In this document: piece by piece, positions 1 to 64,000 of the stretch
Layout: every line of letters begins with the position of its first letter
Position numbering within the stretch: the first letter of the stretch is position 1
NCBI RefSeq assembly: GCF_945957525.1
Contig: NZ_CAMFLA010000002.1
Location: 248,001-312,000 of the forward strand
Direction of reading: 5' to 3'
Length of the DNA stretch: 64,000 nucleotides
DNA from: an uncultured Aquitalea sp.
GTDB lineage: Bacteria > Pseudomonadota > Gammaproteobacteria > Burkholderiales > Chromobacteriaceae
The notes under the pieces: generated by a model
Database searches by the model: none
What the model was told of the DNA's origin: nothing
Seen by the model: only the letters and a program-made list of their open reading frames with translations
Made by a program: the position numbers and the translations under genes

Positions 1-2
1 GC

Positions 3-86
3 ATTGGCGCAAACCCGCAGCTGTCGGTATATGCCTTCGCCTTGCGCTCAGCGCACAAGTTGGCCGAAACGCTGCAACGAGGGTGA
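3..86 (+). CDS. 3' end of an unidentified gene (partial)
   Basis: An open frame enters from the left edge and stops with TGA at 84-86, giving a 27-residue tail that ends in KLAETLQRG. It is followed by a strong rho-independent terminator, so a transcribed gene most likely ends here. The tail is too short to assign to a family. The frame is inferred from composition and the terminator position only; a competing frame stays open to 186 but runs through the terminator. Confidence 0.35.
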   Translation: MGANPQLSVYAFALRSAHKLAETLQRG

Positions 87-129
87 ATACGCCGGGCAGG
101 CCAAATTGTTTTGTTTGAGTATTTGCACC

Positions 130-155
130 AAAAAGCCGGCAAAGCCGGCTTTTTT
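130..155 (+). terminator. Rho-independent terminator
   Basis: AAAAAGCCGGC, a 3-base AAA loop, then GCCGGCTTTTT: an 11-bp stem ending in a T run. It closes the gene entering from the left edge and separates it from the efflux operon. Confidence 0.85.
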
Positions 156-221
156 CATGGCGATGTCTGCAAAAATGCGCAAGTAAATGACATTTCTCAA
201 CGGGAGTTCGCTGGCTGGCGT

Positions 222-255
222 TAGAATGGGCCTGTATTGATGAATGGTGATTCAT
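222..255 (+). promoter_or_regulatory. Likely promoter -10 and palindromic operator of the efflux operon
   Basis: A good -10 hexamer, TAGAAT, lies at 222-227; no convincing -35 is visible. Right after it, 240-255 is a perfect palindrome, ATGAAT-GGTG-ATTCAT, ending 7 bases before the TolC-like start codon. A palindrome just downstream of a -10 is a typical repressor site. The TetR protein encoded at 6825-7472 is the natural candidate, but this pairing is inference; the same palindrome is not seen upstream of that gene. Confidence 0.45.
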
Positions 256-262
256 TACTGCT

Positions 263-1588
263 ATGGCATTTTTCCGTTTGAATAAAGCCGTATTTGGCGT
301 GCTGCTGGCGTTAACGGGGCAGGCGCAGGCGGCGGAAACGCTGGAGCAAGCCTGGCAAGCGGCAGTGCAAGCCAGCAATGCCCTGCGCGCGGAAGCCCGG
401 CGCGTGGGCGCTGCCGGCGAGCAGGTCAAGGCGGCGGAAGCCGCTGCCGGGCCGACGCTGAAGCTGGAGGGCAGCTGGACGCAGCTGGACAGCACCCCGC
501 AAGCGCGCATTGATCTGACGCCGATGACGCAGGGGCTGGGCCCCTTGGCCGCGCGTCTGCCGTCTAGCGTGGACGCGCCGCTGTCCAGCAATCATCTGGG
601 CGTAGCCGACGCCAGGCTCAGTCTGCCGCTGTATACCAGTGGTCGCCTGCAAGCGCTGCGCGACGCGGCGCTGTCCTCCGAAGACGCTGCGCGGCAAGGC
701 TTGACGCAGGCGGAGCAGGAGCTGCGTTTGCAAGTGGCGGAGGCCTATTTCAATGTGCTGCGCGCCGGCCATGCTCACGACGTGGCGCGCCAGTATCTGG
801 CCAGCCTGGAAAGCTATCAGCGGGATGTCGGTAATTTCTTCCGCAAGGGGGTGGTGGCGCGCGGCGATCTGCTGGGTGCGGAAGTGGCCGTGGCGGACGC
901 TAGGCAAAAGCAGATTGTAGCCGCCCAGGCCAAGGCGCTGAGCCGCGCTGCTTATAACCGTCTGCTAGGGCGGGCATTCACACAAGAAGTGGCGTTGGCC
1001 GAGGTGGATTGGCCGCGCGAGACGCGCCCGCGCGCGCAATTGGCCGCCATGGCGGATCGGCAACGGCCCGAGCTGGCGGCGCTGGCCCGTTGGCGCGACG
1101 CGCTGGAAGCCAATGCCCGCAGCGTCAAAGCCGAGGGTGGGCCGCAGGTGGGCGCCTATGCCGCCTACAGTTATGCGGACAATCCCTATCTGGTGAACAA
1201 GGGTTATGGCTCGCTGGGCCTGGGCGTGAGCTGGACGCTGTTTGACAGCGGCCTGATCCGCGCGCGCGCCGCCGGCGTCAGCGAGCAGGCGCAGGCTATG
1301 GCGGATCAGCTTCAGGAAGCCAAAAGCCTGGTGGCGCTGGATGTGGAGCGCGCCGCCAGCGCCGAGCTGGAGTCCGCCGAGCGGGTGACGGTAGCGCAAA
1401 GCGCGCTCAAATCCGCCGACGAATACCTGGCCATACAGCGAGACCGCTACCGCAACGGTCTCGCCAATCAGACCGAAGTGCTGGCGGCCGAGGCGCGCCG
1501 CGCCGACAGTCAGCGCAATCTCTACAACGCCCGTTACGACCACGCGTTAGCCGTGGTGCGGCTGAAACGGGCCACGGGTGAGCTTTGA
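263..1588 (+). CDS. TolC-family outer-membrane efflux channel
   Basis: The 441-residue protein has a signal peptide (hydrophobic residues about 8-22, cleavage near AQA-AET) and the all-helical, internally repeated build of TolC/OprM proteins, rich in Ala, Gln and Glu. Such proteins form the outer-membrane exit duct of tripartite pumps. It is the first gene of a tightly packed operon with an HlyD-type adaptor, a double ABC ATPase and two ABC-2 permeases, so it probably gives this pump its own duct; E. coli YbhGFSR has no dedicated TolC gene beside it. Length is normal for the family. The substrate cannot be read from the sequence. Confidence 0.9.
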   Translation: MAFFRLNKAVFGVLLALTGQAQAAETLEQAWQAAVQASNALRAEARRVGAAGEQVKAAEAAAGPTLKLEGSWTQLDSTPQARIDLTPMTQGLGPLAARLPSSVDAPLSSNHLGVADARLSLPLYTSGRLQALRDAALSSEDAARQGLTQAEQELRLQVAEAYFNVLRAGHAHDVARQYLASLESYQRDVGNFFRKGVVARGDLLGAEVAVADARQKQIVAAQAKALSRAAYNRLLGRAFTQEVALAEVDWPRETRPRAQLAAMADRQRPELAALARWRDALEANARSVKAEGGPQVGAYAAYSYADNPYLVNKGYGSLGLGVSWTLFDSGLIRARAAGVSEQAQAMADQLQEAKSLVALDVERAASAELESAERVTVAQSALKSADEYLAIQRDRYRNGLANQTEVLAAEARRADSQRNLYNARYDHALAVVRLKRATGEL

Positions 1589-1589
1589 C

Positions 1590-2501
1590 ATGAAAAAAAC
1601 CGGATGGATTGTGGCGGCGCTGGTATTGGGCGTGGCTGGCGCAGTGGGGTATAGCCAGTGGCAGAACCGCGCGCGTGGTTTGCCGGACGGATTGATCCAG
1701 GCCAATGGGCGGCTGGAGGGCGACAGCGTGCTGATCGCCGGCAAGTACCCCGGCAGGTTGGCCGAAGTGCGCGCTCATGAAGGCGACGCGGTGACCAGCG
1801 GACAAGTGGTGGCGGTACTGGCGTCCGACGAGGTGACGGCGCGCCTCCATGCCGCTCAGGCTGCCGTGGCGTCGGCCCGGGCGCAAAAAGACCGTGCCGC
1901 TGCCGCCAGCGCGCAGGCCGGCAAGGATGCCGCCCGCTTTGCCGACTTGCTGGCGCGCGGATCGGTGGATCGCATGCATGCCGAGCAGATGCAGCTGGCC
2001 GCCGTCAGCGCCCGTACCGTGTTGCAGCAGGCCGACCAGCAGATCAGCCAGGCGGATGCCGCGAGGCGGGAAGCGCAGGCCGTGCTGGATGAGCTGACGC
2101 TGAAAGCGCCCAGTGGCGGCGTGGTGGTGAATCGCCTGCGCGAACCGGGAGAGGTGGTGGCGGCGGGCGCCGGCGTGGTGGAGCTGGTGGATCTCAATAA
2201 GCTGTACCTCAAGGTGTATGTGCCGGAAAACCAGATCGGCAAGGTCCGCTTGGGTTTGCCGGCGCAACTGCATACCGATGCCTTTCCTGATCAAGTGTTT
2301 GAGGCGCGCGTGACCCATATCGGCAGCAAGGCCGAGTTCACGCCCAAGGAGGTGCAGACGCCGGACGAGCGCGTCAAGCTGGTGTACGCGGTGAAGCTGT
2401 CGCTCAGCGCTAATCCGGGGTTCAGGCTCACCCCCGGGCTGCCGGCCGATGCGGTCATCCGCTGGAAGGATGATGTGCCTTGGCAGGCTCCGCACTGGTA
2501 A
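1590..2501 (+). CDS. HlyD/MacA-type periplasmic adaptor of ABC efflux pump
   Basis: The 303-residue protein starts at ATG 1590, one base after the TolC-like stop; an upstream GTG at 1578 would overlap that gene. Residues about 5-22 form a single N-terminal membrane anchor. It then shows a lipoyl-like half near residues 45-75, an Ala/Gln-rich coiled-coil hairpin (about 85-165), the second lipoyl half (KAPSGGVVVNRLREPGE) and a beta-barrel region. This is the membrane-fusion architecture of YbhG/YhiI, which bridges the inner-membrane ABC transporter and the outer-membrane channel. Its place between the channel and the ATPase gene supports this. Confidence 0.9.
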   Translation: MKKTGWIVAALVLGVAGAVGYSQWQNRARGLPDGLIQANGRLEGDSVLIAGKYPGRLAEVRAHEGDAVTSGQVVAVLASDEVTARLHAAQAAVASARAQKDRAAAASAQAGKDAARFADLLARGSVDRMHAEQMQLAAVSARTVLQQADQQISQADAARREAQAVLDELTLKAPSGGVVVNRLREPGEVVAAGAGVVELVDLNKLYLKVYVPENQIGKVRLGLPAQLHTDAFPDQVFEARVTHIGSKAEFTPKEVQTPDERVKLVYAVKLSLSANPGFRLTPGLPADAVIRWKDDVPWQAPHW

Positions 2502-2504
2502 ATC

Positions 2505-4430
2505 ATGAACGACGAAATCGTTATCCGCGCCACGGACTTCGGCAAACGTTACGCCCGTCACGCTGCGGTCTGCGGGCTCGATCTTGCCGTACGCAAGGGC
2601 GAGCTGTACGGCCTGATCGGCCCGGATGGGGCGGGCAAATCCAGCCTGATGAAGGCGGTTGCCGGCGTATTGGCTTTTGAGGAAGGCCGGCTGGAAGTAT
2701 TTGGCCTGCCGGTGGGCAGCGAGCGCGAGGCGGAGCGGGTAAAGGGACGCTTGGGCCTGATGCCGCAGGGGTTGGGGCAGAACCTGTATGGTGATCTGTC
2801 CATCGAGGAAAACGTGGATTTCTTCGCCCGCTTGCGGCAGGTGCCGGCGGCGGAAGCCGCCGCGCGCAAGGAGCGTTTGCTGGCTATTACCCGGCTGGCG
2901 GCTTTTCGCGCACGGCCGATGAAGCAGCTGTCCGGCGGCATGAAACAAAAGCTGGGGCTGGTGTGCACGCTGATTCACGCGCCGGACCTGATCATCCTCG
3001 ACGAGCCCACCACCGGCGTGGACCCGGTGTCTCGCCGTGATTTCTGGGCCATTCTCGCAGAGTTGATTGCCGATCAGGGCCTTACCGCATTGGTGTCCAC
3101 CGCCTATATGGATGAAGCCAGCCGCTTTACCCGCATGAGCTTGCTGCACGAGGGACGCGTGTTGGCCGAAGGTGCGCCGCAGGACATCCTGGCGCTGGCG
3201 CCGGGCGTGCTGGTGCAATGCCGGGTGGAGCCGCAATTGGAGGCAATCAGCCGCCTGGCGGCGGACTTCCCCCAGTGCGAAGCTATGGGGCCGGATATCC
3301 GCTTGTTTGCCGCGGGACTGGATGAAGCCGGCGCGCGCGCAGCGGTCGCGCAGAGGCTGGCCGGCTTGCCGTGTCAGCGTCTGGATGTCATGGAGCCGGA
3401 GCTGGAAGACGTTTTCGTCGCCATGTTGTCGAGGCAGGGCGCGGCCGCCGCCACGGCGCAGCCCGTCAGCGCGGCGGTGGCGAATGCCGAGGGACTGGCC
3501 ATCGAGGCGCGCGGGCTGTCCAAATGCTTTGGCGAATTTATCGCGGTGGGCGACGTCAGCTTCCAGGTGCGGCAGGGTGAAATCTTCGGCTTGCTGGGCG
3601 CTAACGGCGCTGGAAAAACCACCGCCATCAAGATGCTCACCGGTATCTTGCCGCCCACGCGCGGCGAGGGACGGGTAGCCGGCGCCGACATGAAGCAGGC
3701 CGGCGCGCTGATCAAGTCGCGCATCGGTTATATGTCGCAGGCCTTCTCCCTCTATCTGGATCTGACCGTGGCGGAAAACATCCGTCTTTACGCAGGCATT
3801 TACGGCCTGGACCGTCGCCGCCGCGACAGCCGTCTGGGCTGGATTCTCGATATGGCCGGCCTGCATGGTCACGAAAACGACCTGGCCTCGTCCTTGCCCA
3901 TGGGTCTGCGCCAGCGCCTGGCGCTGGGCTGTGCGCTGGTGCACGAACCCCGGGTACTGTTTCTGGACGAGCCCACCAGCGGCGTGGACCCCTTGGGGCG
4001 GCGCGCTTTCTGGGACATCCTGTTCCGACTGTCGCGCGTGGACGGCGTGGCCATGCTGGTGACCACCCATTACATGAGCGAGGCGGAACACTGCGACCAT
4101 CTGGCGTTGATGTTTGCCGGCAAGGTAGTGGCGGACGCCAGTCCTGAGGCGATGAAACAGGAAGTCATCGCCGAGGCCGGTCAGCTTTACCGTTTACAGG
4201 CCGACAACGCCGCGGCGCTGGTGCGCCCGCTGCAGGAGCATGGTTTTGCCAATGTTTCGCCGTATGGCGCCGCCTTGCATGTGCTGACGCGCGAGCCGGA
4301 GCGGCTGCGCAAGACGCTGGCGGGCATGGGCGTGCCGGCAGACCTGCGCGAGCGGCCCATCGCCATGGAGGATGTCTTCGTGCATCGCGTCAGCCAACTG
4401 GAAGCGGCCAGCCGGAAGGGACAGCCATGA
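2505..4430 (+). CDS. Fused double ABC ATPase of ABC-2 efflux pump (YbhF-like)
   Basis: At 641 residues it holds two nucleotide-binding domains in tandem. Domain 1 has Walker A GPDGAGKS (39-46), signature LSGGMKQ (142-148) and Walker B ending LDEPTTGVD. Domain 2 has Walker A GANGAGKT (about 364-371) and Walker B LFLDEPTSGVD, but its signature is changed to LPMGLRQ, so the second composite ATP site may be weak. It powers export through the two ABC-2 permeases encoded next, whose first start overlaps its stop by 4 bp. The layout matches E. coli YbhF. Substrate unknown; YbhF is linked to export of drugs and cations. Confidence 0.9.
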   Translation: MNDEIVIRATDFGKRYARHAAVCGLDLAVRKGELYGLIGPDGAGKSSLMKAVAGVLAFEEGRLEVFGLPVGSEREAERVKGRLGLMPQGLGQNLYGDLSIEENVDFFARLRQVPAAEAAARKERLLAITRLAAFRARPMKQLSGGMKQKLGLVCTLIHAPDLIILDEPTTGVDPVSRRDFWAILAELIADQGLTALVSTAYMDEASRFTRMSLLHEGRVLAEGAPQDILALAPGVLVQCRVEPQLEAISRLAADFPQCEAMGPDIRLFAAGLDEAGARAAVAQRLAGLPCQRLDVMEPELEDVFVAMLSRQGAAAATAQPVSAAVANAEGLAIEARGLSKCFGEFIAVGDVSFQVRQGEIFGLLGANGAGKTTAIKMLTGILPPTRGEGRVAGADMKQAGALIKSRIGYMSQAFSLYLDLTVAENIRLYAGIYGLDRRRRDSRLGWILDMAGLHGHENDLASSLPMGLRQRLALGCALVHEPRVLFLDEPTSGVDPLGRRAFWDILFRLSRVDGVAMLVTTHYMSEAEHCDHLALMFAGKVVADASPEAMKQEVIAEAGQLYRLQADNAAALVRPLQEHGFANVSPYGAALHVLTREPERLRKTLAGMGVPADLRERPIAMEDVFVHRVSQLEAASRKGQP

Positions 4431-5581
4431 ACCTGAAACGGGTGGCGGCCATCGCCTCCAAGGAATGGCGGGAGATCCTGCGCGACCGGCTGTTCTTTTC
4501 GCTGGCCTTTGTGGTGCCGGCCTTGTTGATGGTGCTGTTTGGCTACGGATTATCGCTGGATGTGGAAAACATCCCGTTCGCCGTGGTGGATCAGGATCGC
4601 AGCGCCGCAAGCCGGGATTACGCCTATCGTTTCATCGATTCACGCTATTTCAGCTTTCGCGGTTACGCCGCTAATCAGCGCGATGCCGAGCGTGCGCTAG
4701 CTGCCGGCGATGTGCGGGTGGTGCTGGTGATTCCGCCGCGCTTCGGCCAACGTCTGGCGCAGGGGCGCGAGGCCGGCATCCAGACGCTGGTGGACGGCAC
4801 GTTTCCCAGTCGCGCCATGACCACCAAGGGCTACGTTACCGCCATCAACGCGGCGTTCAGCCTGGCCTCGGTGACGCAGGCGGTGTCGCGCGTCACCGGC
4901 ATGCCGCCGGACGATGTGGCGGCGCAGCTGACGCCCATCGCGCTGGAAACGCGCTATCTCTACAACCAGAGCGTCACCAGCATTTGGTCGCTGGCGCCCA
5001 AGCTCATCATGGTGATCCTGATGTTGTCGCCCCCTTTTCTCACGGCGCTGGGCGTAGTGCGCGAGAAGGAAAACGGCTCCATCTTCAATATCTACGCGTC
5101 CAACGTCAGTCGGGGAGAGTTTCTTGCCGGCAAGCTGCTGCCCTACGTAGCCATTTCCAGCGTCAACATCCTGGTGTTGTGGCTGCTGGCTACGCTGTTG
5201 TACGGCGTGCCGTTCAAAGGCAGCTTGCTGTTCTTTCTGCCGGCCACCCTGGTGTATGTGCTGTGTACCACCGGCATCGGCTTGCTGGTGTCCGTGCTGG
5301 TGCGCACCCAAGTGGCGGCCATGATTGTCACCATGGTGGCCACCATGATTCCGGCGGTGCTGTATTCCGGCCTGATCATCCCCATCGTGTCGCTGGGGCC
5401 GGGTGCGCGGCAGGTGGCCGAACTGATGCCGGCCATGTACTACACCGACATCGTGGTGGGCTGCTTCCTCAAGGGCGTGGGGCTGCAGAGTCTGTGGCGA
5501 CCGTTGCTGGTGCTGTCCTTGTATGCCTGCCTGTTGTTTGCCGTCGGTTACGCCCTGTTCAGCAAGAGGCCAAAAACATGA
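4427..5581 (+). CDS. ABC-2 type permease (YbhS-like), first of two
   Basis: The 384-residue inner-membrane protein has one N-terminal helix (about 20-40), a large periplasmic domain (about 40-180) and a cluster of about five C-terminal helices, the build of ABC-2 drug-export permeases. The conserved VVREKENGSIFNI stretch at about 207-219 is the coupling region after the second helix. Start overlaps the ATPase stop (ATGA), and its own stop overlaps the next permease, so the subunits are probably translated in balance. It likely forms a heterodimer with the following gene. Confidence 0.9.
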   Translation: MNLKRVAAIASKEWREILRDRLFFSLAFVVPALLMVLFGYGLSLDVENIPFAVVDQDRSAASRDYAYRFIDSRYFSFRGYAANQRDAERALAAGDVRVVLVIPPRFGQRLAQGREAGIQTLVDGTFPSRAMTTKGYVTAINAAFSLASVTQAVSRVTGMPPDDVAAQLTPIALETRYLYNQSVTSIWSLAPKLIMVILMLSPPFLTALGVVREKENGSIFNIYASNVSRGEFLAGKLLPYVAISSVNILVLWLLATLLYGVPFKGSLLFFLPATLVYVLCTTGIGLLVSVLVRTQVAAMIVTMVATMIPAVLYSGLIIPIVSLGPGARQVAELMPAMYYTDIVVGCFLKGVGLQSLWRPLLVLSLYACLLFAVGYALFSKRPKT

Positions 5582-6738
5582 GCGATTTTCTCCTGTGGTG
5601 GCGGCTGGCGCTGCGGCGTTTCGCAGTGATGCTGGTGAAGGAGCTGAAACAGCTGGGGCGCGACCGGGTACTGCTGGCCTTCATCGTTTACGCCTTCACC
5701 GCTGATATTTTCCTTGCGGCGTCCGGGGTGTCCTTGTCGCTCAATCATGCGGCCATGTTGGTGCAGGACATGGATCGCACGCCGCAATCGCGCGAACTGG
5801 CGGCGCGCTTCGCCGAGCCGCACTTTCAGCAGGGCGGCGTGGTGACGCGTGACGCGCAAGGCCTGGCGGCGCTGGATCGCGGCGAAGCCATGATCGTGCT
5901 GTCGGTGCCGCCGGACTTCGGCAAACATCTGCAAAAGGGCGAACCCGTCGCCGTGGCCATGCAGGTGGACACCACCAATTCAGTGCTGGGTTTTCTGGCC
6001 ACCAGCTATGCGCAGGAAATCGTCGCCCGCTTTGGTCTGGAGTCGGCGATGCGCCGCTTGGGTCTGGCCGGCGGCGCGGCGGCCGAGCTGCCGCAGGCGG
6101 CCAACGAGGTGCGGGTCTGGTACAACCCGAATCAGGAAGACAGCTGGTTCATGGGTATTTCGGAGATGCTGAACATCGCCACCGTGTTTGCCGTGCTGTT
6201 GCCGGCGGCGGCCATGGTGCGAGAGAAAGAGCGCGGCACGGTGGAGCAGTTGATCGTTTCGCCGCTGACGCCGTTCGGCATCCTGTTTCCCAAGGTGGTG
6301 TCCATGACCGGGGTGATCCTGTGCGGTGTGGCGCTCAGCCTGTTTCTGGTGTTGATGCCGGTATTCGCCATTCCCGCCAAGGGCAGTCTGGCGCTGTTCT
6401 TTGCGCTGTCCGGCCTGTATGTGTTCACCACGGCGGGCTTGGGCTTGTTTGCGGCCACCATTGCCCGCAATCTGGCGCAGGCGGGCATGCTCTCCATCCT
6501 GATTCTGGCGCCCATGCTGTTTCTGTCCGGCGCCTGGACGCCGCCGGAGGCCATGCCGGCTTGGTTGCGCGGGCTGATGTTTGTCTCGCCGTTGCACTAT
6601 TACCTGGACATCGCCTTTGGCATCTTGCTGAAAGGGCAGGGGGTGACCGAGCTGTTGCCGGCCATCATGGGCATGACTGCCATCGGCGTAGGCGTGTTTG
6701 CCTTTGGCCTGCTGCTGTTTCGCCGGCAGTTTGATTGA
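5578..6738 (+). CDS. ABC-2 type permease (YbhR-like), second of two
   Basis: The 386-residue protein starts at ATG 5578, overlapping the preceding stop by 4 bp; the frame is open much further upstream, but that part is the shadow of the first permease. It has the same topology: one N-terminal helix, a periplasmic domain, then a helix cluster with the coupling motif MVREKERGTVEQL. It is the last gene of the five-gene efflux operon and ends before a bidirectional terminator. With the previous gene it should form the membrane channel of the pump. Confidence 0.9.
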   Translation: MSDFLLWWRLALRRFAVMLVKELKQLGRDRVLLAFIVYAFTADIFLAASGVSLSLNHAAMLVQDMDRTPQSRELAARFAEPHFQQGGVVTRDAQGLAALDRGEAMIVLSVPPDFGKHLQKGEPVAVAMQVDTTNSVLGFLATSYAQEIVARFGLESAMRRLGLAGGAAAELPQAANEVRVWYNPNQEDSWFMGISEMLNIATVFAVLLPAAAMVREKERGTVEQLIVSPLTPFGILFPKVVSMTGVILCGVALSLFLVLMPVFAIPAKGSLALFFALSGLYVFTTAGLGLFAATIARNLAQAGMLSILILAPMLFLSGAWTPPEAMPAWLRGLMFVSPLHYYLDIAFGILLKGQGVTELLPAIMGMTAIGVGVFAFGLLLFRRQFD

Positions 6739-6811: not shown

Positions 6812-6821
6812 TTGGCCGAAG
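6812..6821 (+). repeat. Intergenic copy of dispersed 10-mer TTGGCCGAAG
   Basis: One of at least 21 exact copies in the window, lying between the terminator and the tetR stop codon. See the finding on the candidate uptake sequence. Confidence 0.7.
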
Positions 6822-10900: not shown

Positions 10901-11562
10901 GCGCTCTCGCGGGCGTGTTGCTGGCTGCGTCCTGGAGCGGCGGCAAGGACTCCTGCCTGGCGCTGTGGCGGGCAAAGCAGGCCGGTGCAAAGGTGCATTG
11001 CCTGCTCAACATGCTGGACGAAAACGGCGAACGCTCCCGTTCGCACGGCGTGCGCCCGGAGGTGCTGACCGCGCAGGCCGAGGCAATGGGTCTGCCGCTG
11101 GTGAGCGGCAAGGCCAGCTGGGCCGCTTACGAAGCAGAGTTTGTTTCCCGCCTGCGGGCATTGCATGGCGAGGGTGTGCAAGCCATGGTGTTTGGCGATA
11201 TCGACCTTGAGCCGCACCGCGAGTGGGAAGAAAAGGTGTGCGCGGCGGCATCGCTGCAAGCCTTGCTGCCCTTGTGGCAGGAGGCGCGCGAGAAACTGGT
11301 GCGGGAATTCGTCGATGCGGGTTTTTCCGCGCGCATCGTTATGCTCAACACCGATATGGTGAGTAAAAAATGGTTGGGCCAAACGCTTGATCATGCGCTG
11401 ATTGACGCCATGTTGGCCGAAGGGGTGGATCCGTGCGCGGAAGGCGGCGAATTCCACACGCTGGTGACCGACGGCCCGCTGTTCGCTGCGCCGCTGCGTC
11501 TGCGCGTCGGCGAAGAGCGCCGGGACGGCTGCTATGCCAGCCTCGATTTCATGCTGTCCTGA
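10897..11562 (+). CDS. Dph6-like ATP pyrophosphatase (COG2102 / DUF71 family)
   Basis: The 221-residue protein has the PP-loop SWSGGKDS at residues 12-19 and the family's C-terminal EGGEFHT motif near 180, so it should activate a substrate by adenylation and transfer ammonia. Eukaryotic and archaeal members make diphthamide on EF2, which bacteria lack; bacterial members have been linked by comparative genomics to B12 salvage. Here it sits inside the riboflavin operon, starting at a GTG that overlaps the ribE stop. The start is supported by that coupling. Its substrate is unknown; a role around flavins or their derivatives is only suggested by position. Confidence 0.85.
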   Translation: MSALAGVLLAASWSGGKDSCLALWRAKQAGAKVHCLLNMLDENGERSRSHGVRPEVLTAQAEAMGLPLVSGKASWAAYEAEFVSRLRALHGEGVQAMVFGDIDLEPHREWEEKVCAAASLQALLPLWQEAREKLVREFVDAGFSARIVMLNTDMVSKKWLGQTLDHALIDAMLAEGVDPCAEGGEFHTLVTDGPLFAAPLRLRVGEERRDGCYASLDFMLS

Positions 11563-13819: not shown

Positions 13820-14776
13820 ATGAACGAATTTGACTTGATACGCCATTGCTTCACCCGCGAAGCCCGCCATAGCGTGCTGGGCGTGGGCGATGATGCGGCC
13901 ATCCTTCGGCCAACCCCGGGCTGCGATCTGCATGTTTCCACCGACATGTTGGTGGAAGGGCGGCACTTTTTTACTGATGTCGATCCGCACGCCCTGGGTC
14001 ACAAAACGCTGGCGGTGAATTTGTCGGACATGGCGGCGATGGGCGCTGTGCCGCGCTGGGCCTTTCTGTCACTGGCGCTGCCTGCGGCAGAGGCGGGCTG
14101 GGCGCAAAGATTTGCCGAAGGGCTGTTTGCGCTGGCCTATGAGCATGGCGTGGATCTGGCTGGCGGCGACACCACGCGCGGCCCGCTGACCTTGTCGGTC
14201 ACCATCATGGGCGAGGCGCCGCAAGGGCTGGCGCTGCGCCGCGACGCCGCTCTTGTGGGCGACGACGTGTGGGTGAGCGGCGAGCTGGGTCTAGGCGCGC
14301 TGGCGTTGGCGGAGCGCTTGGGTGGCGAAGTGGCGGTGGAGGCGGGCTTGCTGGCGGCGGCTAGGCAGCGGCTGGACTATCCACAACCGCGTGTTGCGCT
14401 GGGGCGGGCATTGCTGGGGGTGGCGCATGCGGCCATTGATGTATCGGATGGCTTGATGGCGGATCTGGGTCATGTCCTGACCGCCTCCGGCGTGGGGGCG
14501 GAGGTGTGGCTGGACAGCCTGCCTTCTCATGCCGGCATGGAGGCGGATCGACCGCGCTACCTCGCTTGTCTGGCGGCAGGCGGCGATGATTATGAGCTGT
14601 GCTTCACCGCGCCGCAGGCGGCGCGCGCCGCCGTGCTGGCGGCGGGCGAGGCAACGGGTTGCCGGGTGACGCGGGTTGGCCGCGTGACGGCGGCGTCTGG
14701 CGGCAGGCTGCTTGATGCGTCGGGAAATGTCGTGTCATTGGCAAGGACGGGTTATGACCACTTCACACAAGGCTAA
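13820..14776 (+). CDS. thiL: Thiamine-monophosphate kinase
   Basis: ThiL makes thiamine pyrophosphate from thiamine monophosphate and ATP. The 318-residue protein carries the ATP/Mg motifs of the PurM-like fold: GVGDDAAILRP near residue 22, a strand STDMLVEGRHF, HKTLAVNLSDMAAMGA, GGDTTRG and IDVSDGLMADLGH, then GGDDYELCF. The ATG at 13820 is preferred because the next residues (NEFDLI) are the usual N-terminus; an upstream GTG at 13802 falls inside the terminator stem. It overlaps pgpA by 23 bp. Confidence 0.95.
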   Translation: MNEFDLIRHCFTREARHSVLGVGDDAAILRPTPGCDLHVSTDMLVEGRHFFTDVDPHALGHKTLAVNLSDMAAMGAVPRWAFLSLALPAAEAGWAQRFAEGLFALAYEHGVDLAGGDTTRGPLTLSVTIMGEAPQGLALRRDAALVGDDVWVSGELGLGALALAERLGGEVAVEAGLLAAARQRLDYPQPRVALGRALLGVAHAAIDVSDGLMADLGHVLTASGVGAEVWLDSLPSHAGMEADRPRYLACLAAGGDDYELCFTAPQAARAAVLAAGEATGCRVTRVGRVTAASGGRLLDASGNVVSLARTGYDHFTQG

Positions 14777-16669: not shown

Positions 16670-16709
16670 AAAAGACTTCGGCCAACCTTTGTGTTGGCCG
16701 AAGTCTTTT
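16670..16709. terminator. Terminator built from an inverted pair of TTGGCCGAAG
   Basis: Left arm AAAAGACTTCGGCCAAC (16670-16686), loop CTTTGT, right arm GTTGGCCGAAGTCTTTT (16693-16709): a perfect 17-bp stem bounded by A and T runs. Each arm contains one exact copy of the dispersed 10-mer. Paired uptake sequences acting as terminators are known in Haemophilus and Neisseria. Confidence 0.9.
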
Positions 16710-18864: not shown

Positions 18865-19500
18865 TCAGAGTTCGTCCAGTGTTTCCGCCAGATGGGATTC
18901 GTCGGCCCACTTTTCCAGCACCCAGCCCTGCGGGCCCACGCTCAACCAGTTCAGGGCGGCGTTGGGAATGGGGAAGTCGCGCGGTTTTTGCAGCGGCGTA
19001 CCCGTGGCGTGGCGGTAGATCATTTCCAGCACGCCGCCGTGCGCCACCACCAGCACGGTTTGCGCCGGATGCGCTTCGGCCAACCAATTGATGTGACTGA
19101 TGATGCGCTGGTGAAAGCCCTGTAGGGTTTCGCCGCCGTCCATATCGTAATGCGGGTCTCGATCCTGATGCTTGCGCCAGGCTTCCGGCATGGCGGTGCG
19201 GGCTTCGTCGTAGGTCTTGCCTTGAAAGGCGCCGTAGTGACGTTCCTTGAGTGCGTCGTGAAACTGGGCGATCAGCTTCAGTTTGTCCACCAGCGGCGCT
19301 GCGGTCTGCCGGGTGCGGGTGAGACTGCTCACATGCAGGCTGTCAAAGCGCTGCCCGCGCAGTTGCAGGGCGGTGGCCAGCCGCAGGGCCTGTTCCTCGC
19401 CTTGCCGGTTGAGCGGGATGTCCAGATGGCCTTGCAGGCGGCGTTCTCGATTCCAGTCGGTTTCGCCGTGGCGAACAATGCAGAAGCGGGTGGTGTGCAT
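18865..19500 (-). CDS. Histidine phosphatase superfamily protein (phosphoglycerate mutase-like)
   Basis: The 211-residue protein opens with the phosphohistidine motif [10 protein letters not shown] (residues 8-17) and has the second His in [11 protein letters not shown], plus the [16 protein letters not shown] segment with the proton-donor Glu. Such enzymes act on small phosphorylated molecules; close relatives include GpmB and CobC, and the substrate cannot be told. It sits 21 bp after dgt on the same strand and may be cotranscribed, consistent with a nucleotide or general phosphatase role. Confidence 0.88.
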
Positions 19501-43131: not shown

Positions 43132-43716
43132 ATGCAATATCGTGAGAGCGCGCAGCCGCTTTTGCTGCTCATAGACATGCAGCAAGGTGTCGATCAACCC
43201 GTCTGGGGGCCGCGCAATAACCCAGGAGCGGAACAGGTGGTTGCGGGTCTGCTCGCGCGCTGGCGAGCCGCCGGCTGGCCCATCATCCATGTGCGGCACG
43301 ACTCTCTGGAGCCGGGTTCTACGTATCGGCCCGGTCAGCCCGGCCATGCGTTCAAGCCCGAGGCCCAGCCCTTGCCCGGGGAAGTGGTGGTGGCCAAATC
43401 GACCAATAGCGCCTTCGTCGGTACCGATCTTGCGCAAAGGTTGGCCGAAGCGGGCAATCCGCCTCTGGTGGTGGCCGGCGTGTCCACCAGCAATTCGGTG
43501 GAGGCGACGGTGCGCATGGGCGGCAATCTGGGCTACCGCATCTGGCTGGTGGCCGATGCCTGCTTTACCTTTGACAAGACCGATTGGCATGGCCGCCTGG
43601 TGCCGGGGGAGGCGGTGCATGCCTTGTCTCTGGCCAATATGGATGGAGAATATTGCCGGGTAATCAACAGCAGGGTGTTGGGCGGGGCGCTGAAGGTCGG
43701 CTGGCAGGCGGGGTAA
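43132..43716 (+). CDS. Isochorismatase-family hydrolase lacking the catalytic cysteine
   Basis: The 194-residue protein has the family Asp in LLLIDMQQG (about residue 17) and the Lys in VVVAKSTNSAF, but the block that should hold the catalytic Cys (G-x-x-T-x-x-C-V) reads GVSTSNSVEATVR, with Ser in its place. Nicotinamidase-like amidase chemistry is therefore unlikely, while isochorismatase-type vinyl-ether hydrolysis, which needs no Cys, is possible. The ATG at 43132 has CAGGAG at a usual distance; the ATG at 43120 is directly behind that site. Lone gene, convergent with ynfA. Confidence 0.85.
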   Translation: MQYRESAQPLLLLIDMQQGVDQPVWGPRNNPGAEQVVAGLLARWRAAGWPIIHVRHDSLEPGSTYRPGQPGHAFKPEAQPLPGEVVVAKSTNSAFVGTDLAQRLAEAGNPPLVVAGVSTSNSVEATVRMGGNLGYRIWLVADACFTFDKTDWHGRLVPGEAVHALSLANMDGEYCRVINSRVLGGALKVGWQAG

Positions 43717-45369: not shown

Positions 45370-46029
45370 ATGAAAAAACTGTTGCAAGTCGGCATCCTGG
45401 CCGCTTCCGCCCTGCTGCTGGCCGCTTGCGCCAGCAAGCCAGTCAATTACGACTACACCGCTTACAAGGAAAGCAAGCCACGTTCCATTCTGGTGTTGCC
45501 GCCGGTAAACCAGTCGCCGGACGTCAACGCCAGCCTGAGCATGCTGTCCGTGGCCACCGTACCGTTGGCCGAAGCCGGCTATTACGTGATGCCGGTGACG
45601 CTGGTGAGCGAAACCTTCAAGCAGAACGGCGTTACGGTAGCCAATGACGCGCAGGATGTGCCGATCAAGAAGCTGCATGACATCTTCGGCGCTGATGCCG
45701 GGCTGTACATCACTGTCAACAAATACGGTACTAGCTATCGCGTGTTCGACAGCGTGGTTGAGGTGTCCGCCAGCGCCAAGTTGGTGGATCTGCGCAGCGG
45801 CGCGCTGTTGTGGCAGGGCTCCGCCATGGCGTCCAGCGCGGAAAATCAGAACAATAGCAGCGGCGGCCTGATCGGCATGCTGGTGAGTGCGGCCATTAAC
45901 CAGGTGGTGCACAACCTGGCGGATCACAGTCACGACGTGGCCAAAGTTGCCAGCTACCGTTTGCTGTCTACCGGTTATCAGGGTGGTTTGTTGTATGGCC
46001 CGTACAACCCGAAATACGGGACAGACTGA
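45370..46029 (+). CDS. DUF799 lipoprotein (GNA1162-like)
   Basis: The 219-residue protein has a lipobox LLAAC near residue 20 and the DUF799 features: PVNYDYTAYKESKPRSILVLPP, a NQSPDVNASLSMLSVATVPLAEAGYYV segment, NKYGTSYRVFDSV and a hydrophobic helix GGLIGMLVSAAINQVV. The Neisseria homologue GNA1162 is a surface or periplasmic lipoprotein, structurally like the N-domain of TolB. Last gene of the trio, with a strong terminator after it. Confidence 0.9.
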   Translation: MKKLLQVGILAASALLLAACASKPVNYDYTAYKESKPRSILVLPPVNQSPDVNASLSMLSVATVPLAEAGYYVMPVTLVSETFKQNGVTVANDAQDVPIKKLHDIFGADAGLYITVNKYGTSYRVFDSVVEVSASAKLVDLRSGALLWQGSAMASSAENQNNSSGGLIGMLVSAAINQVVHNLADHSHDVAKVASYRLLSTGYQGGLLYGPYNPKYGTD

Positions 46030-46058
46030 GTGGCATGTTTGCCGAAGGTCATGACGAC

Positions 46059-53588: not shown

Positions 53589-53598
53589 CTTCGGCCAA
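53589..53598 (-). repeat. Intergenic copy of dispersed 10-mer TTGGCCGAAG
   Basis: Extended form AAGGTTGGCCGAAG on the minus strand, 76 bp before sbcD. The rest of the gap 53541-53673 shows nothing else. Confidence 0.7.
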
Positions 53599-54894: not shown

Positions 54895-57800
54895 AAATCC
54901 TCACGTTGCGGCTGAAAAACCTCAATTCGCTCAAGGGCGAGTGGAAGATCGACTTCACCAAGCCGCCGTTTCGCGATAATGGCCTGTTTGCCATTACCGG
55001 CCCCACCGGCGCGGGCAAATCCACCTTGCTGGACGCTATCTGTCTGGCGCTCTATCACAAGACCCCGCGGCTGGACACCATCTCCGCCGGCGGTAACGAG
55101 ATCATGACCCGCCACACGGCGGACTGCCTTGCCGAGGTGGAATTTGAAGTCAAAGGCCAAGCCTATCGCGCCTTCTGGAGCCAGCGCCGTGCCCGCGACA
55201 AGGCCGACGGCGCACTGCAGGCCCCGCGCGTGGAGCTGGCCGATGGCGAGGGAAACATCCTCACCACTCACATCAACGACAAGCTCAAACGCATTGAAGC
55301 CATCACTGGGCTGGATTTTGGCCGCTTCACCAAATCCATGCTGCTGGCGCAGGGCGGATTCGCCGCCTTCCTCAACGCCAGCGCCAATGAGCGCGCCGAG
55401 TTGCTGGAAGAGCTGACCGGCACCGACATTTACGGCCAGATATCCCGACGTGTGTTCGAGCGGGCGCGCGATGCCAAACAGGCGCTGGATCAACTGCAAG
55501 CGCGCGCCGACGGCATGGAGCTGCTGACGGACGACAAGCGCGACGCCATGCGCCAGCAAGTCGAGGCGCTGGGCGAGCAGTTGCGCGGCCTGCAGTCCCG
55601 GCAAGCGCAAACGGACAAGCTGCGCCAATGGCGCGTGGCGCTGGCCGAGGCCGGGCAGGCGCAGACTGCCGCACAGCAAACCGAACTGACAGCACGGCAG
55701 GCCTTGCAGGACGCCGAGCCGCAACTGGCCGCCTGGCGCGCCAGCCAGCCGGCGGAAGCCTTGCGCCCTGTGTGGCAAAGCCGGCAAGACGCCGCCGGTC
55801 GCCTGCAAACAGCGCAGGCGGCAGCGGAGCGGGCACAGGCGGAGCTCAATGCCGCGCAGGCCGATTCGCTGGCCGCGCAATGGCGCGCCTGCCGGTTGGC
55901 CGAAGGATTGGCCGCTGCCGAACAGGCACAGCTGGATGAGATCAATCAGCAAGCGCTGGCCGCGCAAGACTGGCTCGTCCGGCATGCTCATTTCGGCGGA
56001 CTGGGAGAAAGCCTCAGCGGCTGGCTAAGCCGGCAAGAACGCATCCAGCAGCAGGCCGCCGAAGCGCAAAGCCTGAGCCGGCAAGAGCAAGAAGCGCAGC
56101 AGGCGCAGGCCCGGCTTCTGCAGCAACTCGCGGCACAGCAAGCCGTGCTGCAAACAGCGCAAACCCGCCATCAGCAGTGCGCGCAGCAAACCACCGTCGC
56201 CAGTGCCGCCTTGCAGGCCCTCCAGGCCGGCGACAGCCCCGCCGAGCTTGGCGCGCGCTGGCAACAGGCGCTGGCCGAACTTCAACACTGGCGCGATGCC
56301 CAGCGGCTGGCCGGTCAACTGCGCCAGCTCTTCAGCCAACAGGGGCGGCAAGAGGCCGAGACGCAGGCGGCGCGGCAACAAGTTACTGAACTGGAAGCCC
56401 GTCTCGAAACCTTGCGCGTCGACTATCGCCAGCTCAAAGAGCAGGTGGACGACAAGCGCAGGCTGCTGCAACAGGAGCAGCGCATCCAGAGCCTGGAGGC
56501 GCATCGCGCCGCCTTGCAGCCTGGCGAAGCCTGCCCACTGTGCGGCGCCGTGGAGCATCCCGGCATTGCCCACTATCAGCAATTGAATGTCACGCAAACC
56601 GAACAGGCCTTGCAGGCCAAAGAGGCCTTGCTGCAACAGCTGCAGGAGCAAGGCCTGGCGCTGAAAAATGAAATCTCCACCCTGAATGGCCAGCTGGAAC
56701 AGCTGCGTCGCACCCAGGACGAACAGGCCGTGCAATGGCGTCAGACGCTGGCGCAATGGACGCCGCTGGCGGCCGCATTGCAACGAGCGGACGCGGACTG
56801 GCAGCAGGAGGCGTTGCTGACGGAGGCGCTGGCGGATGCAGAAAAGCGGGAAACGCAACTGAAACAGCGCGCGGCCGACGCCGAGCAGGCGCGGCAGCAG
56901 CTTGCGCAAGCCGAGCGGCAGCAGGCTGCCAGCGCCGCAGACTTGCAGCAGGCGCAGACCCAGCAACAGTTGCAGCAACAACAGGCAGACAGCCTGGACA
57001 AGGCGCTGAAAACCCTGCACGGCCAACATCTGGCGGCAGAGGCGGCGTGGCAGCAGGGGCGGGACGCCTTGTTGGCGGATATCCGCGCAAGCGGCTTCAC
57101 GCCGGAGGCTGCGCTGGCCGAATGGCTGGCCGACCGCGCGCAGGACTGGCGCGCATGGCAGGAAAAGCAGCAGCAACAAGCTGCGCTGCAAGGTGAACAG
57201 CGTTTGCTGCAGGCCCGCCAGCAGCAGGCCGCACACACCGCCGCCCAGTGGCGACAGCGCTGGCAAGCGCTGGGCGCGGCCGAACCGGTATCGACGCCGC
57301 CCGCGGTGTGCGACGCCGAGGCGCTGGCCAGCGCCGTCAGCGCGGTTGATGGCGCGGTGGCGCGGCTGGCCAGTCTGCAAGGCCGCGCCACGCAGTTGCA
57401 GCTGGATTGCCAAGCGCTGGCGGAGCAGGCCGGCCTGGCGGAAAGCCAGTGGCAGGCCGCGTTGCGCGACAGCGTGTTTGCCGATGAAGCCGCCTTCAGC
57501 CAGGCCCTGCTGCCAGAGGCGGAACGCCAACGCCTGCAAAGCCTGCAGCAACAACTGAGCGACGCGCTGGCGCGCGCCGAAGCGGTAGCCCAGACCGCCG
57601 CCACCTCGCTGACGGCCTTGCAAGAACAGGCGCTGACGGAGGCTACGCTGGCGGAACTGGAGCAAAACCTGGCGGAGCTGGACGCCGCCCGCCAGCAGTT
57701 GTCCGCCGAGCAGGGCGCTTTGCAGGCGCTGCTGGCCGACGATGCCCAACGCCGCGACAACCAGCAGGCCCTGTTTGCCGACATCGCCCGACAGAGCGAG

Positions 57801-59491: not shown

Positions 59492-60861
59492 GATTCTTCC
59501 TGTTGAGAAGGGGTGAGCAAGGGGTCTTGCCGCTGATAGCGTCCCAGCAGCAGTCCGGCGGAAGCAATGCCGAGGATGATCAGCCAGTCGCGCGGCGGCG
59601 CATCCTGCAAAATGGCCCACAGCGTGTACAGCGTGCCGAAGATCGCCAGCAAGGCTGGCAGCGGCCACCAGGGCATGATGTAGGGGTGGTGAACGTCTTC
59701 GCGGCGGCGGCTGATCAGCGCGCATACGGCCATGATCAGGTAGGTCAGCAAAATCACGATCACGGTGAAACTGGTCAGCTCTTCCAGATTGGAACTGAAG
59801 GTGAGCAGGCCGGAGGGCAGCGCAAACAGTAAGGTGGCGATCCATGGCGTGCCGAAGCGGGGATGGATGCGCACCAGCGCGCGGTTCATCGCCGGCGGCC
59901 ACAGCCGGTCGCGACCGCTGGCGTAGAGAAAGCGGCTGCTTTGCAGCACCAGCGCAATGATGGCGTTGAACACGGAGAGGAAAATCCCGCCGCTGATCAC
60001 TCGCGCCAGCAGCGGAGAACCCAGCTGGCTGACCACGTAGCTGATCGGGTCCGGCTGGCGCGCCACCTCGGCCAGCGAAGGCGCGCCCAGCAACAGCGCG
60101 GTCAGCGGCAATAGCTCAACCAGCACCACAATGACCAGCGTCACCATGACGGCCCGCGCCATGGGTCTGCCGGTTTCTCGCATGTCTTCCGCCAGGTAAA
60201 TGGCGCCGCCGAAGCCGTTATAGGAAAACACCGCGCTGCCGATGGTGGCCGCAACGGCGGCTACCGGTGCCACCATCAACGCGCCGTGAGCATCCGGCAT
60301 TACCGGGTTGAGCAGCACGCTGACGGGCTGATGCGGTTGGCCGAAGCCAAGGACGGCTATCACCAGCAGCACCAGCATTTCCAGGCAAAGAAACAGGCCG
60401 GTCACCATGGCGTTGAACTTGATGTCGAGCACACCGATGGCGTAGCACAGCAGCACCACGCACAGGGCGGCCGTGGCGCTGTCCAGATGCGTGCCCAGCG
60501 CCGTGTTGAGATAAGCCACCGCGCCGGTGGCCAGTACCGCCGGCACAAACAACAGCAGGCATAGCACGAAAAGATACATTTGCAGGCCAGCCAGTTTGCC
60601 GAAGAGGCGCTGCACAATCACGTATTCGCCGCCGGCGTTGGGGTGGGCCGCGCCCAGCTCCGCATAGCAAAGCGCGTACATGAGTGCCAGCATCGCCGCC
60701 AGCGTGAACGACAGAAAAGCCCCGCTGCCGGCGCTGTGAATGGCGAAGGGGGCGATAACGAACAGCGAGCTGGCCGGCGTCACCCCGGACACGGTGATCA
60801 ACACCACATCGGCCACGCTGAGGGACCGCCTCAGCCCGCCGCCTTGCATTTCCTTTGACAT
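59488..60861 (-). CDS. APC-superfamily amino-acid permease
   Basis: The 457-residue protein has about twelve helices and the APC pattern: SVADVVLITVSGVTPASSLFVIAPFA at helix 1, LMYALCYAELGAAHPNAGGEYVIVQR, and VFSYNGFGGAIYLAEDMRETGRPMARAV around helix 6. It probably imports amino acids or related amines by proton symport. The peptidase gene starts within its stop codon, forming a two-gene operon. The divergent LuxR-type regulator at 60966 may control it, as the intergenic region is about 100 bp. Confidence 0.9.
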   Translation of the reverse strand: MSKEMQGGGLRRSLSVADVVLITVSGVTPASSLFVIAPFAIHSAGSGAFLSFTLAAMLALMYALCYAELGAAHPNAGGEYVIVQRLFGKLAGLQMYLFVLCLLLFVPAVLATGAVAYLNTALGTHLDSATAALCVVLLCYAIGVLDIKFNAMVTGLFLCLEMLVLLVIAVLGFGQPHQPVSVLLNPVMPDAHGALMVAPVAAVAATIGSAVFSYNGFGGAIYLAEDMRETGRPMARAVMVTLVIVVLVELLPLTALLLGAPSLAEVARQPDPISYVVSQLGSPLLARVISGGIFLSVFNAIIALVLQSSRFLYASGRDRLWPPAMNRALVRIHPRFGTPWIATLLFALPSGLLTFSSNLEELTSFTVIVILLTYLIMAVCALISRRREDVHHPYIMPWWPLPALLAIFGTLYTLWAILQDAPPRDWLIILGIASAGLLLGRYQRQDPLLTPSQQEES

Positions 60862-62362: not shown

Positions 62363-62374
62363 AGCGACCGACAA

Positions 62375-62480
62375 TCCGCATCACGGCTGAGGCAAGGCGC
62401 GCCGACGCGGGCAGTAATTGAGTAAGGCAAGGAGGCGCAACGCAGCATCAGGCGGGTTGTTGGCGGGACTTAATTGCGCC
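62375..62480 (-). repeat. Intergenic repeat, copy 1 of an inverted pair
   Basis: Read on the minus strand it contains GCTGCGTTGCGCCTCC, TTACTCAATTACTGCC and GCGTCGGCGCGCCTTG. The same order of blocks, diverged, is on the plus strand at 63533-63635. The remaining gap 62481-62562 holds a hairpin: GCTATTCCGCC at 62493-62503 with GGCGGAATAGC at 62531-62541. Confidence 0.7.
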
Positions 62481-62562
62481 GCCGCCTGCCGCGCTATTCC
62501 GCCGCCGGTGGATTTCTTCCTACGCGCCATGGCGGAATAGCCCGTACAGCGGGGTTGGCTTG

Positions 62563-63426
62563 TCAATCAAGCTGGTAGTCGTCGCAGGCCGGCAAGGGGC
62601 GGTTGGGCAGGTATTGTTGACGGGCCTCGTCAAACGTAAACACCCGCCGGTAGCTGCAGGCTTTGTCCACGGCCTGGACGATGTCTTTCTTGCGGAGCGG
62701 CGGGGCGCTCAAAGAATCGCGCTGCCGCGAAACCGTGCCGGGGAAGCTTGTGGCGCGCGTGCGGTAGATCAGTCTCGGCATGGCTTTCGTATTGCCTGCA
62801 TCCAGCGCGATGCGGCCGTTAAAAGTGTATTCGTCGTGACATGCGCCGGCCCGTTGGCGCATGTCGCGCTCAGAAAAACAGGCGCGGATCATTGCCCAAA
62901 ACCCGTCTTGCACCCCCAGCACCTGTGTCAGTTGCAAAGTGCCAGCTTGCCGGTGCGCCTGCAAAAGCAGCAGATTGCTCTGATTGGCGCCGCCGCCGGA
63001 GTACATGGTGCGTGCGTTTTGCAGCACCCCCACAATCAAGCTGTCAGGGTTTTGCCCCAAAGTGATGACATAGGGCCAGAGCGTATATTCGAGGTTGTCG
63101 GCATTCTGCAACTGCAGCGCCGCGAGATCGCCGGCGGCGAGGCGGCTGTCGCCCTTGCCAGCCACAGACAGCTTGCGCTCGCCGTTCTCGCCGGATTCCA
63201 GCGTCAGGCACAAGGTGCCATCCGCCGTACAGCCTTGCATGGCAGTGGCGTTGGCGCCCTGCGAGGCGGCGTCTTGCAGCGCCAGCGCTTGCATGACGTT
63301 GCCGGCTTGGTCGGTGACGGGGCGCTCTGAGGCGGCAGCCTGGACGGCCGGCGCAGTCAGCCCGCAGAGCAGGGCGAAAACGGTAAGCATCAGGCGGCGA
63401 CAAGATGCTGTTGATGAGGGGTTCAT
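62563..63426 (-). CDS. Secreted protein of unknown function
   Basis: The 287-residue protein starts at 63426 and has a signal peptide (hydrophobic about 12-28, ending VQA-AA). The mature part includes a DGTLCLTLESGENGERKLSVAGKG strand region, LEYTLWPYVITLGQNPDSLIVGVLQNARTMYSGGG split in beta strands and several paired Cys (residues near 85, 91, 182, 195, 260, 279), hinting at disulfides in the periplasm. I recognise no family. It is bracketed by an inverted pair of intergenic repeats. Confidence 0.72.
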   Translation of the reverse strand: MNPSSTASCRRLMLTVFALLCGLTAPAVQAAASERPVTDQAGNVMQALALQDAASQGANATAMQGCTADGTLCLTLESGENGERKLSVAGKGDSRLAAGDLAALQLQNADNLEYTLWPYVITLGQNPDSLIVGVLQNARTMYSGGGANQSNLLLLQAHRQAGTLQLTQVLGVQDGFWAMIRACFSERDMRQRAGACHDEYTFNGRIALDAGNTKAMPRLIYRTRATSFPGTVSRQRDSLSAPPLRKKDIVQAVDKACSYRRVFTFDEARQQYLPNRPLPACDDYQLD

Positions 63427-63532
63427 GTGTGCGCTGGATAAACAGGAAAGCCAGCATCTTGCCTGCGCGATAGCTAAAGGGCGAGCGTTGACGGAGCTTG
63501 ACGGGCCGGATGGACAGGCAGACAGATGCCTG

Positions 63533-63635
63533 CGCCGCAATTAAACCCCCAACAAGCCCTCTGATCCTGCGTTGCGCCGCTTTGTCGTACTCAAGTACTG
63601 CCAGCGTCGGGGTGCCTTGGCTCAGGGCTTTGCTG
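63533..63635 (+). repeat. Intergenic repeat, copy 2 of an inverted pair
   Basis: Contains CCTGCGTTGCGCCGC, TACTCAAGTACTGCC and GCGTCGGGGTGCCTTG, a diverged inverted copy of 62375-62480. The 274-bp gap 63427-63700 shows no other feature. Confidence 0.7.
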
Positions 63636-63700
63636 GGTTTTGTTGGCCGCGCTTACTTTCCCGGTAAACTGAATGCCTTTTTCTCCGCCACGCCAACCCC

Positions 63701-64000
63701 ATGCCACACAACGACATCAGCAATTTGCAAACCCATCTTGGCTACTGGCTGCGGCTGGTTTCCAACAGCGTGTCCGACAGCTTCGCCCGTCAGTTGGAAC
63801 AGCACGGCGTAACGGTAAGCGAATGGGTGGCCTTGCGGCTGTTGTACGACCTGCCGGACGCCACCCACGCCGACCTCACTCAGCGCATGGGTCTGACCAA
63901 GGGCGCGGTGTCCAAGGTGATAGCGCGCTTGCAGGAAAAACAGCTGTTGAGCCGTCAGGGCGATGCCGACGACGCCCGGGCCTTGCGGCTGCGCCTGACC
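63701..64000 (+). CDS. MarR-family transcriptional regulator (partial, cut by window end)
   Basis: The first 100 residues are in the window: a helical N-terminus (ISNLQTHLGYWLRLVSNSVSDSFARQLE) and the winged-helix DNA-binding domain (THADLTQRMGLTKGAVSKVIARLQEKQLL), followed by the wing (DADDARALRL). These are hallmarks of MarR proteins, which repress genes until a phenolic or other ligand binds. The ATG at 63701 is used. Its target gene lies outside the window or is itself. Confidence 0.88.
   Translation, partial: MPHNDISNLQTHLGYWLRLVSNSVSDSFARQLEQHGVTVSEWVALRLLYDLPDATHADLTQRMGLTKGAVSKVIARLQEKQLLSRQGDADDARALRLRLT

Follow-up and report, generated by a model that had tools for sequence, protein, structure and literature searches.

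Why one 10-base word, TTGGCCGAAG, recurs so often in a 64,000-bp stretch of an uncultured Aquitalea genome (assembly GCF_945957525.1, contig NZ_CAMFLA010000002.1, positions 248,001 to 312,000; hereafter the window) is the question addressed here. An earlier note, made from the letters of this stretch, had proposed that the word behaves like a DNA uptake sequence (DUS). That proposal is supported by the over-representation of the word, its presence on both strands and in all reading frames, a spread along the genome that is fairly even, and the presence of a ComP ortholog in the host. We put at close to nine in ten the probability that the word is a DUS, a self-recognition label for natural transformation, working through the minor pilin ComP and lost from other Aquitalea. 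It probably represents a new group of DUS dialects outside the Neisseriaceae.

Abundance, form and placement of the word

The window (61.8% GC, close to the earlier estimate of about 62%) holds 22 exact copies of TTGGCCGAAG, whereas 100 dinucleotide shuffles gave 0.25 copies on average and never more than 3. The word thus lies far above chance, as the earlier note had judged from an expectation of roughly 0.15 copies, estimated from base composition. All 21 positions and strands given in that note proved exact, but its total was one short, a copy at 23994 having been missed. The over-representation extends across the 4.05-Mb host genome and to both strands, with 1158 copies (565 forward and 593 reverse) against 40 (16 and 24) of the reversed word used as a control.

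The base preceding TTGGCCGAAG is G at 21 of the 22 window copies, and therefore the unit is at least GTTGGCCGAAG; AAGGTTGGCCGAAG is present at 5 of them. In a 448-kb host sample, composed of the window and 384 kb of the same genome, the 11-mer GTTGGCCGAAG occurs 127 times against 1.6 expected and has a sharp mutational spectrum. Among its single-base variants, T in place of G4 is raised (54 copies), as are A (19) or C (12) in place of the last base and C in place of T3 (12); C in place of G1 or of G5 is weakly raised (6 copies in each case), and most other variants lie near expectation. AG stands ahead of GTTGGCCGAA in 50 of 160 host copies (8.4 expected), and the full word is about 11-12 bases long, (AG)GTTGGCCGAAG. 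A mobile repeat was rejected, as there is no strong conservation past about 12 bases. A lesser form, GTTTGCCGAAG (G4 to T), is abundant in the host alone among the genomes examined.

Exact copies lie on the forward strand of the window at 1758..1767, 6812..6821, 24851..24860, 36485..36494, 41705..41714, 43441..43450, 45565..45574 and 60337..60346, and on the reverse strand at 4741..4750, 13904..13913 and 19074..19083. Further copies fall outside called genes, at 11413..11422 (+), 23994..24003 (+, absent from the earlier list), 24200..24209 (-), 28725..28734 (-) and 33797..33806 (+). One lies within an RbbA-like ABC ATPase gene that scores under the curated RbbA cut-off (3162..3171, +) and another within a YedE/FdhT gene encoded on the opposite strand (40682..40691, +). 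Two inverted copies, at 16676-16685 (-) and 16694-16703 (+), form a terminator-like hairpin (16670..16709) with a 17-bp stem and a 6-nt loop (-36.2 kcal/mol, z -7.4). The secondary form TTTGCCGAAG occurs at 14111..14120, 29488..29497, 35064..35073, 46038..46047 and 60595..60604 on the forward strand and at 2537..2546, 5916..5925, 21613..21622 and 32124..32133 on the reverse strand. The recombination nuclease genes sbcD and sbcC (53491-58310) carry one word copy each, at 53589..53598 (-) and 55896..55905 (+), respectively.

Placement relative to genes was assessed in the 448 kb with approximate gene calls from a simple open reading frame (ORF) method filtered on GC content at third codon positions. 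Of 136 copies of TTGGCCGAAG, 106 lie in called genes and 30 outside them, where 19.8 would be expected by length. The coding copies occupy all six frame classes (55, 6 and 7 on the same strand as the gene; 1, 15 and 22 on the opposite strand), and therefore no single reading frame lies behind the word. An origin as a by-product of codon or amino-acid usage could draw on the Leu-Ala-Glu frame, which accounts for about half of the coding copies (55 of 106). It is contradicted by the other frame classes, by the copies outside genes and by the congeners: the usual Leu-Ala-Glu spelling CTGGCCGAA is the lower in the host (5 per 100 kb, with TTGGCCGAA at 39), and the reverse holds in word-poor Aquitalea (12 and 0 per 100 kb, respectively, in 160 kb). 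We give this origin practically no chance, and the earlier claims that the copies are read in several frames, lie both in and between genes and are not explained by codon usage all stand.

Gaps between copies of the word and its T form are fairly even, slightly more so than random (193 gaps, coefficient of variation 0.88), in agreement with the even spread that the earlier note had suggested looking for. Both orientations alternate along a 340-kb stretch, and a polar chromosome motif was rejected. Motifs of the Chi, KOPS, matS and HIP1 types are likewise short, dispersed and abundant, and on these shared traits the word could be an architectural or recombination motif (Chi, KOPS or matS-like) or a HIP1-type methylation or restriction site. 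The alternating orientations are unlike those of polar motifs, however; the word is no palindrome, GTTTGCCGAAG disrupts its GGCC centre, counts are at background in nine congeners, and the ending of the word varies by genus, all of which make such a function very unlikely. What is found is an extreme over-representation on two strands that codon usage, frame and strand polarity leave unexplained, as in the DUS class.

The longest word-free gap within the 448 kb measures 14.7 kb (G000 C1:32333-47006). Judged by eye from ORF starts, its genes include rpoA, secY and those of ribosomal proteins, and a foreign island was rejected; these genes may be too constrained to hold copies.

Word-rich and word-poor relatives and their dialects

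The host belongs to Aquitalea, which we take to be a genus of the Chromobacteriaceae and which includes Aquitalea magnusonii DSM 25134 (G008, contig NZ_QJKC01000010.1). The pattern GTTGGCCGMR was counted in all 61 genomes of the family (10 genera, those other than Aquitalea labelled g2 to g10), with the reversed pattern as a control (23-123 copies across the family). Twenty-three genomes from seven genera were word-rich: the host (1442 copies) and 22 genomes of six other genera, namely g2 (1236, 1018 and 294), g3 (2348 and 868), g4 (2079 and 1724), g5 (2164-3107 in 13 genomes), g6 (1304) and g10 (1932). The 38 word-poor genomes were nine Aquitalea (53-145), 19 of g7 (72-220), six of g8 (69-245) and four of g9 (82-164; G017, G025, G030 and G034). 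The weakest rich genome, G026 with 294 copies of the pattern, has 184 copies of TTGGCCGAAG against 15 of the reversed word; the highest word-poor genome, G024, has 245 copies of the pattern against 115 of its control. Outside the family, none of 386 genomes of the order (399 sampled, 13 of them in the family) exceeded 223 copies, counts there being at or near background.

Absence from sister species had been named in the earlier note as evidence that would refute an uptake sequence. Formally, such absence is found in the nine other Aquitalea, but six other genera have 22 genomes in which the word, with dialect endings, is dense. Other words were sought in pooled word-poor sequence, with 160 kb from Aquitalea, 120 kb from g7 and 80 kb from g8. 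Some words showed a moderate excess only, at a scale where a sparse word could escape; in g7, for example, 17 places were found against 2.0 expected, and two controls gave 32 against 0.5 and 47 against 0.6. A candidate repeat in g9, where 38 kb were covered, was rejected, as it proved to be the leader motif of pilins encoded together in a cluster. A word-poor g7 genome (G066; L176-L178) contains a repeat resembling clustered regularly interspaced short palindromic repeats (CRISPR), with about 68-71 copies in 60 kb, which dominates its k-mer table.

Endings were read in 20-kb stretches of 22 of the 23 rich genomes, with G026 left out. The genomes share a core, GTTGGCCG, followed at positions 9-10 by a genus-typical AA, AG or CA. 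The ending is mostly AA in the host, g2, g3, g6 and g10, AG in g4 and CA in g5, where one of the 13 genomes (G031) has a mixture of CC and CA over its 20 kb. The base that follows AA is C in the g3 genome G011 and either C or A in g10, but G in the other three (host, g2 and g6). All seven rich genomes tested show an enrichment of about 4-10 fold for AG ahead of the core, and GTTTGCCGAA occurs 0-2 times per genome in the stretches of 35 other genomes tallied. The host word is thus one of a set of related Chromobacteriaceae dialects with the core GTTGGCCG.

The spacer between hisA and hisF is the best evidence here for a shared ancestral system and for a dialect that follows the genus at a fixed place. 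At this one site an inverted pair in the local dialect is present in five genera (host, g10, g6, g5 and g4); in g5 one arm is in the CA dialect, and in g4 the pair is of the AG dialect, with arms further apart and one arm beginning with C. The g3 genome G011 has a degenerate hairpin in the spacer, no pair was seen in genomes of g7 (two), g8 (one) and g9 (one), and the g2 spacer was not recovered by the search pattern. Word-poor Aquitalea have a recurring close inverted pair, with coordinates in five genomes; the sequence was read in three of these, where it lies between hisA and hisF, and G001 has a similar hisA-hisF pair. In all four Aquitalea pairs read, position 1 is C or T instead of G, and the pairs look decayed. 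Because the pair follows the local dialect in five genera and is decayed in word-poor Aquitalea, the site suggests that an old uptake-word system has been lost in some lineages. For Aquitalea in particular, loss accounts for the absence of the word better than chance does, since the word is dense in six other genera and the hisA-hisF pairs are decayed.

Of the 61 genomes, 50 were supplied for a ComEC tree, which came to 49 after the program dropped one row. In this tree the host is a divergent Aquitalea on a long branch sister to the other Aquitalea (support 100/99), adjoining g7. As it stands alone there among word-poor Aquitalea and g7, the word might have been gained anew in the host. We regard this as rather improbable: the host ComP groups with Aquitalea ComP (88/82, under the starred level) rather than with that of a different word-rich genus, and at the hisA-hisF site, the one site examined, a decayed pair persists in word-poor Aquitalea. 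The ancestor of the host and the other Aquitalea probably had the word, and the other Aquitalea probably lost it.

ComP as the candidate receptor

The competence and type IV pilus genes found in the host include ComP, ComEC and ComEA; the ComP-like minor pilin that the earlier note thought worth looking for is therefore present. Its ORF (G000 C9:75171-75599) has as best solved-structure match, from the single sequence, Neisseria ComP (2m3k, 2.6e-10), and a 13-sequence profile matched 2nba (4e-20) and 2m3k (1.4e-18), with 2m3k, 5hz7 and 2nba as the top three. The protein is homologous to ComP of N. meningitidis and N. subflava. The comP coding sequence itself holds a word copy, AGGTTGGCCGAAGC (L034:1533-1544), and is adjoined by PilW/PilX-like ORFs; PilY1-like ORFs adjoin two host pilin matches (all named by eye). 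The Pfam family ComP_DUS (PF16732) had matches in all 61 family genomes, above the cut-off in 60 and often to several pilins per genome, and was rejected as a diagnostic for word-rich genomes. A scan of contigs with a ComP-alignment profile kept 80 loci, mostly other pilins.

ComEC matches were found in 59 of the 61 family genomes and ComEA matches in all 61 (59 above the cut-off), the host included in both. Nearly all genomes thus keep ComEA and ComEC, and therefore loss of the word was not loss of the whole pathway. In the word-rich G018 the ComEC match is split in two and 80% complete (C3:1541296-1543079; L282), which may reflect a frameshift or an assembly error. Two g8 genomes without word enrichment, G075 and G076, have sub-threshold ComEA matches only. 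The g9 genomes, also without word enrichment, have ComEA and ComEC matches but lack a clear ComP ortholog, with best matches of about 1e-7 and no match in G034.

ComP sequences from 57 genomes (23 rich, 34 poor) were aligned to compare the two groups; four g9 genomes were excluded, two being not fetched and two having PilE-like best matches only. Of the ten columns that overlap least between rich and poor, seven fall in two segments of the trimmed host sequence (residues 59-63 and 85-91) and three lie elsewhere (75, 108 and 119). From the alignment with Neisseria and the position of its beta1 cysteine, these two segments were assigned to the putative alpha1-beta1 and beta1-beta2 loops, respectively. 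A first motif, in the alpha1-beta1 segment, is present in all 23 rich and in none of the 34 poor sequences; a second, N[TAV]D in the beta1-beta2 segment, in 22 of 23 rich (G018 lacking it) and 1 of 34 poor (G069). Nuclear magnetic resonance work on Neisseria ComP locates DNA contacts in the beta1-beta2 loop, in the DD region and, over a small part only, in the alpha1-beta1 loop (PMC4906244, PMC12061091).

From these sequence comparisons we infer binding by ComP, uptake and transformation, as follows. Type IV pili of a competent cell would carry the minor pilin ComP, whose alpha1-beta1 and beta1-beta2 loops would bind (AG)GTTGGCCGAAG in free double-stranded DNA. As the pilus retracts, the DNA would be delivered to ComEA and ComEC, and word-bearing fragments would recombine into the chromosome, so that the word stays abundant.

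Several observations weigh against a ComP-read uptake sequence. The loop motifs were defined post hoc, after the alignment had been viewed, and the rich/poor label requires no more than three changes on the ComP tree and four on the ComEC tree, so that the correlation of ComP with the word rests on few independent events. The DD region, held in Neisseria by two disulfides between four cysteines, is the main DNA-contact feature of Neisseria ComP (PMC4906244), and in ComP of the present family it is missing or short. The set of four cysteines is lacking: after residue 40, 21 of the 23 word-rich ComPs have two cysteines and the other 2 have three (the third in the helix), the beta1 cysteine occurs in 0 of 23, and the second disulfide is therefore absent. 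The C-terminal region of Chromobacteriaceae ComP is also short; any reading of the word by ComP would therefore take place without a DD region. The nine other GTDB Aquitalea lack the word yet have ComP, ComEA and ComEC. With regard to the word itself, enrichment between genes is modest (1.5-fold in the 448 kb), and only four close inverted pairs of either form occur in the 448 kb, two of them inside called genes, so that pairing is a minor feature. The earlier description of copies paired at terminators thus fits the one pair in the window (16676/16694), but pairing is otherwise rare.

A DUS could also be real with another minor pilin, such as FimT or a second PilE-like pilin, as its receptor and ComP as a bystander. 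This would fit the retention of ComP in word-poor genomes of the host genus and g7, the missing second disulfide and the presence in the host of three further pilins over the ComP_DUS cut-off, one with a FimT-like ORF beside it (named by eye). We consider it unlikely, though credible enough to be weighed, given that the candidate is a clear ortholog of Neisseria ComP and that seven of the ten separating columns lie in the loops assigned to DNA contact, a comparison made for ComP only. ComP remains our preferred candidate for the receptor of the word.

Relation to known uptake sequences

The word resembles the DUS of Neisseriaceae (AT-DUS, AG-DUS, AG-simDUS, AG-kingDUS, AA-king3DUS and others) in being 10-12 bases long, in its very many copies on both strands, in genes and spacers, in having related dialects in related genera and in the accompanying ComP ortholog; AG ahead of the core recalls AG-DUS. 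In an ungapped comparison, AGGTTGGCCGAA matches AG-simDUS, AGGCTGCCTGAA, at 9 of 12 positions (simDUS letters from PMC10715097). The AA and CA dialects differ at position 9, where kingDUS and king3DUS differ by A/C, and the eight dialects of Frye et al. 2013 all share CTG at +6 to +8 and A at +10 (PMC3630211 for both). Unlike these, the present word has CCG in place of CTG in the best ungapped alignment, and the A at +10 is kept in the AA and CA dialects and lost in the AG dialect. Five known dialect 10-mers (eikDUS and wadDUS left out) were at background in the 448 kb, with 0-4 copies each, and the word is indeed different from known Neisseria DUS, as the earlier note had stated, matching no known dialect word tested.

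Like Neisseria ComP, the host protein is a type IV minor pilin, and the two resemble each other across the pilin domain, the TSTxWPxLP stretch included. The host protein differs in lacking the beta1 cysteine and second disulfide and in having a short C-terminal region in place of the DD region described for Neisseria (PMC4906244). Uptake signal sequences (USS) of Pasteurellaceae would have the same general role, if the word is a DUS, but are different words, and their proposed receptor is PpdA/ComN (PMC12616744). Two USS 9-mers occurred 3 times and once in the 448 kb.

Self-recognition of the DUS type was described in Neisseriaceae. Laribacter, Lutiella, Pseudogulbenkiania and Chromobacterium are genera now placed in the Chromobacteriaceae. 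In 2013, no obvious DUS was reported in five genomes of these genera (PMC3630211). No account of the word as a DUS was found among the literature matches listed, with many subscription papers, preprints and the supplement of Frye et al. 2013 beyond reach. New here would be a set of words in another family with an altered receptor, following the same logic as known DUS.

We lean, with somewhat better than even confidence, towards a separate Chromobacteriaceae branch of DUS, in which a ComP without a DD region would read a CCG-core word, the system would have been lost on several occasions, its fossils surviving in terminator-like hairpins, and the host would be caught between dialects. This last suggestion comes from its second abundant form, GTTTGCCGAAG, which it alone has among the genomes examined. 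If this is true, both dialect change and loss would be directly testable through orthologous sites and ComP loops. The family holds related words in rich and poor genera, although nearly all its genomes keep ComEA and ComEC, and it would offer a natural series for how word and receptor change together, for the need of a DD region in specificity and for what becomes of genomes after the system is lost.

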